A DNA stretch of 48,312 nt from Herpetosiphonaceae bacterium. Lineage in GTDB: Bacteria; Chloroflexota; Chloroflexia; Chloroflexales; Kallotenuaceae. Both the position numbers and the translations under genes were made by a program. The stretch is from assembly GCA_036374795.1 (NCBI GenBank), contig DASUTC010000318.1, forward strand, positions 1-48,312. The letters are read 5' to 3'. The first letter of the stretch is position 1. Each line of letters starts with the position of its first letter. This document shows positions 2,412 through 38,834 of this stretch, piece by piece. Below the pieces are notes generated by a model. That model was given only the letters and a program-made list of their open reading frames with translations, was not told where the DNA came from and did no database searches.

Positions 2412-3896
<1,485 letters not shown>

Positions 3897-4069
3897 GAGA
3901 ACCAAGAACCAAGAACCAAGAACCGGGTGCCCTCTGGGCGAACCAAGAACCAAGAACCGAGAACCGAGAACCAAGGATAACGTAGATTCTCAGACTTCCC
4001 CCCTCTCCTATGAAATGGGAGAGGGGCCGGGGGTGAGGGCCTGAACTCGACTTTGAACTCGAAACTGAT
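3897..4069 (+). repeat. Composite heptamer array between guaB and the CpXC gene
   Basis: Begins at the guaB stop with GAACCAA heptamers in phase (GAACCAA x3, GAACCGG, then GAACCAA/GAACCGA x5 after a CCGGGTGCC...GGGCG insert). A hairpin follows, CCCTCTCC (4001-4008) with GGAGAGGG (4018-4025). The 19-nt block 4023-4041 recurs inverted and identical at 24915-24933. The array then ends in GAACTCG / AAACTGA-type heptamers that run directly into the ATG at 4070. The order (GAACCAA type first, GAACTCG type last) is the same as in five other loci of this window. Confidence 0.85.
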
Positions 4070-5218
4070 ATGCCAATTTCATACGCTGAACATGTGCCGC
4101 TGACGTGTCCGCGCTGCCAGACGCCGTTCGTCAGCACCACCTATATCATCGTCGACGGCGTGGAGCGTCCCGATCTGGTCGCGCGCATCCTCAACGATTC
4201 GCTCCACGACGCGCTCTGTCCCAACTGCGGGCAGACAGGCCGGGTGCCAGCGCCGCTGCTCTACCACGACGGACGGCAGGGTCGGGTGCTGCTTGGGGTG
4301 CCGCCCGACATGTCCGAGGCCGAGTGGCGTGAGGTTGGGCAAACGCTGCTGTGGACGCTGATCGGCGCGCTGCCGGAGACGCATCGGCTGCCTTACCTGG
4401 GCGATGTTCAGGCCGAGGCTGGCCTGGCCGGAGTGGCCCATGTCATCCGCAGCGAGGCGCTGGCAGGCTCCGGCGGCGAAGAAGAGCGCGAAGATCTGCC
4501 GCCGATCGTGATCGCGATCCAGGCGCTGCTCGACGCCAAGGGTCCGGCGGAGCTGCAACAGATCCTTGAGCAGCATCCGATTCTGAACGAGCCGCAGGCG
4601 GTGGCGATCATGCAGGAGCTGGCGGCGGAGGCGATCAAGCATGGGCAGGTCGATGCCGCCGATGGCTTTGCGCGCGCCGCCGAGCTGCTGGAGCAGGTCA
4701 AGCAGATTCGCGCGCACGCGCCCACCGTCTCGGTCGCATTCGACGGGGAAGCAGCCGCGCGGATCACGCCCGAAGCGCTGGAAGAGCTGGCCTTTGCCGT
4801 GCTGCGCAGCACAACCGGGCAGGATCTGGCCCGCACCGTGGACGAGCATCCTGAGCTGCTGGAAGATTGGGCCGACGACGCGCTGGCGACCTATGCGCGG
4901 CAGGCTCGTCAAGAGGGCAAGCCACGGATCGCCGATGGCCTCGACGAGCGCCGGGCGGCGCTGCGTGAGATGCGCGAGCAGTATCGCGCGCAGCAGCCGG
5001 TCCTCGACGCGATCCAGGCCTATTTGCAGGCGGAGACAGGCGACGAGATCGAGGCGGTGGTGCTGGAGCATGAGGCGCTGACCGGCGATGCCGCCGATCG
5101 TGCGCTGGCCCGACTGGCCGAAAACACGCGCGCCGAGGGCGACGAGGCGTTTGCTGCCTTCGTCGAGGAGCGACGACGCTTCTTGCAGCAGGTTCGCGCC
5201 GCGCTGGAAGAAGAGTAG
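4070..5218 (+). CDS. CpXC zinc-ribbon protein with three helical repeats
   Basis: 382 residues. The N-terminal ~125 residues are a CpXC domain with two CxxC knuckles (C13/C16 in CPRC and C50/C53 in CPNC), probably binding zinc. Three degenerate helical repeats of about 62 residues follow (about 151-213, 241-305, 315-378), each with an E-H-P/E-A-L core and a terminal ERR/AAELL-x-x-V stretch. Similar repeats accompany large Chloroflexota and cyanobacterial proteins of unknown role. No signal peptide or membrane segment is present, so it is probably cytoplasmic, perhaps a scaffold. The ATG has no Shine-Dalgarno sequence; the heptamer array ends right at it. The exact function is unknown. Confidence 0.85.
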   Translation: MPISYAEHVPLTCPRCQTPFVSTTYIIVDGVERPDLVARILNDSLHDALCPNCGQTGRVPAPLLYHDGRQGRVLLGVPPDMSEAEWREVGQTLLWTLIGALPETHRLPYLGDVQAEAGLAGVAHVIRSEALAGSGGEEEREDLPPIVIAIQALLDAKGPAELQQILEQHPILNEPQAVAIMQELAAEAIKHGQVDAADGFARAAELLEQVKQIRAHAPTVSVAFDGEAAARITPEALEELAFAVLRSTTGQDLARTVDEHPELLEDWADDALATYARQARQEGKPRIADGLDERRAALREMREQYRAQQPVLDAIQAYLQAETGDEIEAVVLEHEALTGDAADRALARLAENTRAEGDEAFAAFVEERRRFLQQVRAALEEE

Positions 5219-24861: not shown

Positions 24862-24883
24862 CAGCAATCACCCAGCGCTCGCG

Positions 24884-25045
24884 CGAGTTTCAAGTTTCAA
24901 GTTTCGAGTTCTCCGGCCCTCACCCCCGGCCCCACGCTCAGGCGGGCTTCCGCCTTCGCTGCCTGCGGCATAGGCGAGGGGGAGCGGCGTACACGCTTAC
25001 TCGTCGTTCCTTTGTTCCTTTGTTCGTTTGTTCTTGGTTCTTCTC
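24884..25045 (-). repeat. Composite heptamer array between plsC and the PH-domain gene
   Basis: Reading on the minus strand from the plsC stop: GAACCAA/GAACAAA-type units (25045-25000), a core (24961-25010) shared with 18642-18690, the 19-nt G-rich block (24933-24915) identical to 4023-4041, then GAACTCG-AAACTTG-AAACTTG units (24912-24884) ending 23 bases before the PH-domain ATG. This is the fullest copy of the element. Confidence 0.85.
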
Positions 25046-38193: not shown

Positions 38194-38327
38194 GAAGAAC
38201 AAAGAACCAAGAACCGGGTACCAGGCGCACAAAGAACAAGGGAACAAAGGAACAAGGGAAAACCCGGAACCAAGAACCTGGACCCCTGATCCCTGGACTT
38301 GGAACTTGAAACTTGGAACTTGAAACT
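38194..38327 (+). repeat. Composite heptamer array running into the FHA gene start
   Basis: GAACAAA-GAACCAA-GAACCGG-GTACCAG, a GCGCAC-n insert, GAACAAG/GGAACAAA units, then GAACCAA-GAACCTG-GACCCCT-GATCCCT-GGACTTG-GAACTTG-AAACTTG-GAACTTG-AAACTAT, the last unit overlapping the ATG at 38328. Clear single-phase heptamers over the last 60 bases. Confidence 0.9.
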
Positions 38328-38834
38328 ATGATCTGTCCTAGCTGTCAAAGCCAGAATATTCGCGGCACGATCTTTTGCCTCAACTGCGGCATGAGCTTGC
38401 TGCCCCAGGATCGCGCCCCCGATACCACGTCGATGTTAGGCGCGCGTCCATCGGCTCGCGCGGCGCAGGAGCGTACGGTCAGGGCGGAGCCCGCGCCTGC
38501 CAGCGGCGAGCGCCGCTTCTCCGCGACGGTGCTTAACAGCGGGCGGCGCATCGACGTGCCGCTGGTGACAGCGCTGCTGATCGGGCGGCAAGACGCGGCG
38601 CGGGGACACTTCCCCGACATCGATCTCAACCCCGACGGCGGCTACGACAGCGGCGTGAGCCGCCGCCACGCCCGGATCAGCCTGGACTCTGGCGCGGCAT
38701 ACATCGAAGATCTGGATAGCGCCAACGGCAGCTTTATCAGCGATACGCGCTTGCAGCCACGTACCGCCTATCGTTTGCAGGCAGGCGATGAGCTACGGCT
38801 TGGATCGCTCATTCTACGCATTGAAAGGGTTTAG
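38328..38834 (+). CDS. Zinc-ribbon / FHA-domain protein
   Basis: 168 residues. N-terminal zinc ribbon with C3, C6, C17 and C20; a Thr/Ala-rich linker (about 28-65, with TT at 33-34) resembling the phospho-Thr-containing linkers of GarA-type proteins; FHA domain about 70-168 with the phosphothreonine-binding residues R87, S111, R113/H114 and N133. Likely reads phosphorylation by the upstream kinase. No Shine-Dalgarno sequence: the start codon directly follows the heptamer array. The frame could extend to a TTG at 38313, but those codons are repeat DNA. Confidence 0.9.
   Translation: MICPSCQSQNIRGTIFCLNCGMSLLPQDRAPDTTSMLGARPSARAAQERTVRAEPAPASGERRFSATVLNSGRRIDVPLVTALLIGRQDAARGHFPDIDLNPDGGYDSGVSRRHARISLDSGAAYIEDLDSANGSFISDTRLQPRTAYRLQAGDELRLGSLILRIERV

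Follow-up and report, generated by a model that had tools for sequence, protein, structure and literature searches.

A CpXC-domain gene of a Herpetosiphonaceae bacterium is probably translated without a Shine-Dalgarno sequence from an open, repeat-derived leader

We analyzed a stretch of 48,312 nucleotides (nt) from a Herpetosiphonaceae bacterium (assembly GCA_036374795.1, contig DASUTC010000318.1; hereafter the window), which is contig C318 of a 7.75-Mb genome labelled G000 among the genomes compared. On its forward strand, a gene encoding a CpXC-domain protein (4070–5218; PF14353, E = 1.4e-14) begins directly after a degenerate array of four AACTYGR heptamers (4043–4069, forward strand) that touches the start codon, with no Shine-Dalgarno sequence (SD) in the usual position. 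We consider it probable that this gene is translated from a leadered, SD-independent start at ATG 4070, located on an open leader derived from the repeat. The array, the conservation of the start codon, the lack of an SD, the predicted openness of the region, and the comparison among orthologues were all obtained by computation.

The array was recognized by reading the sequence and by its tandem score. Positions 4043–4069 read GAACTCG-ACTTT-GAACTCG-AAACTGAT and abut ATG 4070, just as the original prediction had described; in AAC phase, they resolve into AACTCGA, (A)ACTTTG, AACTCGA, and AACTGAT, i.e. four heptamers that fall one base short. The tandem score against AACTYGR is 18, a value matched by 10 of 2,000 dinucleotide shuffles, and the upstream 27 nt are equally array-like in 15 of 969 sampled genes of G000, the CpXC gene counted among them. 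Tandem Repeats Finder (TRF) does not return the array at score 30, because it is too worn. The CpXC array is, as such, real but worn.

ATG 4070 is likely the true start of the gene, because an ATG is present at the aligned position in 29 of 30 orthologues (the G000 gene counted), while the 30th has its ATG one codon later. These are the best 30 matches with loci, one per genome and including the G000 gene, from a search of 60 genomes (59 relatives and G000) in which 58 had a match, and some of the matches are partial. The N terminus M-x-[IV]-[SA]-[YF] is conserved in the 29 orthologues with the aligned ATG. The alternative start GTG 4094 would drop 8 residues, most of which are kept in relatives, and it also lacks an SD; a start at another codon with a ribosome-binding site of its own thus finds no support.

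SDs were scored as any 4-mer of AGGAGGT ending 3–13 nt upstream of the start (loose SD), and also by pairing energy against an assumed anti-SD. No such 4-mer precedes ATG 4070 and the pairing reaches only −0.9 kcal/mol, which bears out the earlier claim that no SD lies near this codon. The anti-SD sequence was assumed rather than read, because the usual pattern of the 16S 3' end was found neither in G000 nor in any of the 7 genomes searched (G000 and six relatives), perhaps as a result of rRNA genes being missing or masked. The assumption is supported by six groups of stretches from four families, G000 included, where the SD share is 0.49–0.55 at starts vs 0.04–0.15 at a control site shifted upstream by 40 nt.

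Absence of an SD is, however, common in G000, and near a coin toss for genes in the window. The original prediction had most genes of the window carrying GGAGG-type sites, but even the loose 4-base SD is present in only 21 of the 40 called genes. In G000, loose SDs precede 233 of 440 sampled genes, with starts picked by coding score alone, and 120 of 197 genes whose start is fixed by a near upstream stop. Our own gene caller put the CpXC start at GTG 4094; some of the SD-less genes in the baseline are therefore mis-called starts, and the SD shares are probably too low. With no SD at its likely start, initiation on the CpXC gene should be SD-independent. Of the two routes first suggested, i.e. 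another mode of start or translational coupling, the former is therefore expected, while coupling to the upstream gene guaB is unlikely given that 173 nt separate its stop codon from ATG 4070.

The start region of the CpXC gene is predicted to be unusually open. When minimum free energies (MFE) are ranked so that a high rank means open, the gene stands at 507 of 534 for −20 to +20 and at 517 of 534 for −30 to +30; its local GC content from −20 to +20 ranks 19 of 534, and its mean unpaired probability is less extreme (426 of 534). This openness comes mainly from the array, because the upstream 30 nt carry most of the effect in a swap: placed before the first 30 nt of other genes, they shift the median MFE from −12.6 to −8.1, whereas the reverse swap shifts it only to −11.2. 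More generally, our array survey, which covers 1.44 Mb of G000 partly chosen around arrays, shows less structure at genes whose array lies within 16 nt than at those free of arrays for 60 nt (P = 4e-7). Among the 28 other CpXC orthologues that were folded (locus L008 was left out), those of families f2 (median percentile 0.95, n = 9) and f3 (0.92, n = 5) are also open. Local lack of structure is described as permitting SD-free initiation (Scharff et al. 2011, PMC3121790).

On these grounds, we propose that a dispersed intergenic family of AACTYGR heptamers came to touch the CpXC ATG, and that its units, which would pair poorly, keep the surroundings of the start codon unusually open. The 30S subunit could then bind there directly, openness itself recruiting the ribosome, perhaps with assistance from ribosomal protein S1. 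Contig C353 of G000 carries four S1 domains in one frame, so S1-aided binding is possible. The mechanism presumes that CpXC is expressed from an mRNA with a leader. The array would be tolerated, since most CpXC relatives do without a clear SD, and it may even be useful; a loose SD accompanies CpXC in 7 of 30 orthologues, compared with the 0.49–0.55 of genes in the six groups from these families.

Several observations weigh against this explanation. The SD-less genes of G000 are not more open as a class than the SD-bearing ones (median MFE −13.65 vs −12.25), so that a general tendency of SD-less genes toward openness had to be rejected, and the medians are −11.90 and −12.35, respectively, where starts are fixed by a near upstream stop. 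CpXC orthologues are not open in families f4 (median percentile 0.37, n = 11) or f1 (0.56, n = 3). For two Chloroflexi species, the relevant part of a 2017 survey (PMC5397173) lists no effect linking SD absence to openness. An SD is detected by 4-mer or by energy in 11 of the 30 CpXC orthologues, with the loose 4-mer present in 7, of which 4 belong to a single genus and share an AGGT at 11 nt, and with pairing energy reaching −6 kcal/mol in 6. Lastly, G000 may have lost an SD, because GAGGAG precedes the CpXC ATG in G002, a relative of the same genus that lacks strict GAACNNN arrays.

The last point bears on a true replacement, in which an ancestral SD such as that of G002 was erased by repeat growth or insertion and translation is now reduced and merely tolerated. 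We regard this as possible but not likely for the CpXC gene. Across the survey, a loose SD accompanies 1 of 7 genes with an array within 8 nt of the start, 14 of 21 at 9–16 nt, 9 of 14 at 17–30 nt, and 4 of 14 at 31–60 nt, compared with 470 of 904 genes without an array within 60 nt; the CpXC gene was left out of these classes, its worn array being below threshold. The closest class differs from the 9–16 nt class (P = 0.03) and less clearly from the background (n = 7, P = 0.06, or P = 0.03 with CpXC as an eighth member). Array edges facing starts also come within 5 nt less often than expected from random placement (3 of 78 vs 7.7, P = 0.04), as if this position were costly, and homologues of two other genes with an array at the start mostly bear SDs. 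That the array replaced a ribosome-binding site, as originally proposed, thus gains ground for arrays within 8 nt as a class but not clearly for CpXC itself, where the loose SD is confined to those 7 of 30 orthologues. Comparing the start region in array-free relatives, a check proposed at the outset, gives a divided answer: in G002, 2 nt separate GAGGAG from the ATG, which is poor spacing, and the close relative G005, with neither strict arrays nor an SD before its CpXC ATG, argues against a loss. In the sister genome G001, a hairpin occurs upstream of CpXC together with additional heptamers, but the ATG itself is free of an array. Judging from these alignments, CpXC probably had only a weak SD, or one it could do without, before an array came to lie at its start.

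The replacement claim fits other genes better than CpXC. In the window, a clean AACTTGA/AACTTGG array (38297–38327, forward strand; TRF) touches the ATG of a second SD-less gene (38328–38834, forward strand), which encodes a zinc-ribbon/FHA protein (PF00498, E = 9.7e-17; the zinc ribbon falls under the curated cut-off) and whose start region ranks 501 and 499 of 534 in MFE for the narrower and wider interval. Its homologues have a loose SD in 17 of the 19 others examined, the exceptions being those of G003 and G013; the G003 homologue, from the same genus, lacks an SD although no array adjoins its start, and the case for replacement is weaker for it. For the other example, an ABC permease gene (L088:1000), 19 other loci were returned and 12 homologues examined; all 12 carry an SD before at least one candidate start, although several offer more than one candidate ATG, which favors finding an SD, and all come from other families. 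Both genes are likelier candidates for replacement than CpXC, as far as such sequence comparisons indicate. A NUDIX gene (L226:10225), at first counted as another start abutted by an array and with SD-poor homologues, is an ambiguous case: its reading frame contains a further ATG upstream, with GAGG at a distance of 8 nt, and 3 of the 7 homologues examined, among 19 other loci returned, have a loose SD before at least one candidate start.

The placement of arrays across G000 gives no sign that they are aimed at start codons. Period-7 arrays are mostly intergenic (93 of 111), and any other period tested (5–11) gives at most 29 arrays in this array-enriched sample; in stretches not chosen around arrays, 17 of 22 period-7 arrays are intergenic. 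Array edges that face stop codons crowd within 5 nt of them (23 of 88 vs 10.1 expected, P = 1e-4), whereas those facing start codons are scarce at that distance, as given above, show no excess within 10 nt (12 of 78 vs 14.1 expected), and are in excess at 11–16 nt (13 vs 5.9 expected, P = 0.006), a bin suggested by an earlier, smaller sample contained within the larger one; these edge P values are uncorrected. In a first, smaller sample, an array within 30 nt went with an SD in 12 of 22 genes, similar to the remaining genes. This edge pattern is expected if arrays grow until they meet a coding end or an initiation region.

The leader upstream of the CpXC array offers another route, in which the tail of a hairpin, GGGGGUGA (4029–4036), serves as a standby site through anti-SD pairing, after which the 30S subunit slides about 33 nt over the open array. 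The guaB gene (IMP dehydrogenase; 2421–3896, forward strand; PF00478, E = 8e-164) is the co-directional upstream neighbor, and the 173 nt after its stop codon at 3896 are mostly repeat. On the forward strand, these comprise a GAACCAA heptamer array that begins 1 nt past the stop (3898–3924; TRF period 7, 3.9 copies), a second array of GAACCAA/GAACCGA units (3940–3975; TRF period 7, 5.1 copies), and a dispersed repeat consisting of a GC-rich hairpin (CCCCTCTCC..GGAGAGGGG) with a GGGGGTGAGGG tail (3994–4039; identified by RNA folding and counting). Within the last lies GGGGGTGA, the strongest complement to the anti-SD in the leader (−14.5 kcal/mol). The predicted openness between tail and ATG suits such docking, as does G001, whose copy of this tail ends 16 nt from the CpXC ATG: no 4-mer lies within 13 nt there, and the tail supplies a GAGG 14 nt upstream with −7.9 kcal/mol, just beyond our limit. 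We nevertheless judge distant docking improbable. The tail belongs to a dispersed repeat, with 39 occurrences of GGTGAGGGCCT in 1.44 Mb of G000; together with an array, it also faces stop codons (L065 and L082) and is thus probably not placed for translation; and part of it is paired in the predicted fold.

A leaderless start, with transcription beginning at or next to ATG 4070, is very improbable: despite the TATAAT that ends 7 nt before the CpXC ATG of orthologue L008 (genome G004), a leaderless-like arrangement, and the leaderless genes predicted for 4 of 12 Chloroflexi genomes in passages of PMC3160421, there is no TANNNT within 45 nt of ATG 4070, and a search of positions 3850–4200 for a promoter-like consensus site found none.

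Initiation on an open, repeat-derived leader therefore remains our preferred explanation for CpXC, and the case is a mild variation on a known mode of translation start. With the SD-independent initiation of the type described by Scharff et al. (PMC3121790), it shares the absence of an SD and a start codon in a region predicted to be open; here, however, the open region is supplied by a dispersed tandem repeat. The nearest precedent we found is in the Beggiatoaceae, where TAACTGA heptamer arrays precede start codons of Cand. Maribeggiatoa (BOGUAY; MacGregor 2015, PMC4679880), covering the ribosome-binding region of genes that are described as mostly SD-less; S1 is proposed there among the candidates, as we suggest for CpXC. 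The two systems also differ. According to the same account, BOGUAY uses one fixed unit and most of its sets face and adjoin a start codon, whereas G000 has many related AACNNNN units, no excess of arrays at starts, and arrays at 9–16 nt that mostly spare the SD. The CpXC array, for its part, has none of the exact TAACTGA direct repeats. By analogy, the CpXC arrangement may work like that of BOGUAY in a few genes, but it is not a member of that system.

Other reports from the phylum are more distant. Heptamer-derived satellites of Chloroflexus aurantiacus, (GATAGRA)n, are likewise period-7 arrays in the phylum of G000, but their unit is different and the passages of PMC6749651 that describe them draw no link to start codons. 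The papers listed by our searches for such repeats in Chloroflexi include none on AACNNNN arrays. Leaderless Chloroflexi genes (PMC3160421) are SD-less like CpXC, but the −10 box expected of them was not found next to ATG 4070.

A broader proposal, which we put forward very tentatively and consider doubtful, is that AACTYGR arrays reaching a start codon act as stand-in, open, SD-free initiation leaders in this Chloroflexota lineage, an independent parallel to the TAACTGA arrangement of giant sulfur bacteria, such that repeat growth could switch a gene from SD-led to SD-free initiation. The arrays do show how a dispersed repeat can occupy the space of ribosome-binding sites: they tend to stop short of the SD, few overrun it, and the few starts overrun are predicted to be very open. 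These starts (window 4070 and 38328, L088:1000, and others) form a natural test set for whether openness alone can replace an SD outside model bacteria.

The repeats also form composite intergenic elements of recurring polarity, which run from AACCAAG/AACAAAG arrays through GC-rich hairpins with a GGTGAGGGCCT tail to AACTYGR arrays. They occur in the window at 3897–4069 and 24862–25045 and at many other loci, and often fill most of the intergenic gap. Across the 60 genomes, GAACNNN arrays are patchy, and the favored units differ per genome in the part listed. Overlapping matches to the strict four-fold GAACNNN pattern number 118 in G000 (39 in the reversed control), 467 in G001 (15), and 1061 in G010 (1), and the pattern has no match in G002, G004, or G005. 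G000 also contains inverted pairs of GAACNNN arrays that face each other 16–21 nt apart and could form long hairpins (C67:51756–51826, C84:10771–10838, C170:10289–10357, C293:9736–9804, and C332:2030–2095).
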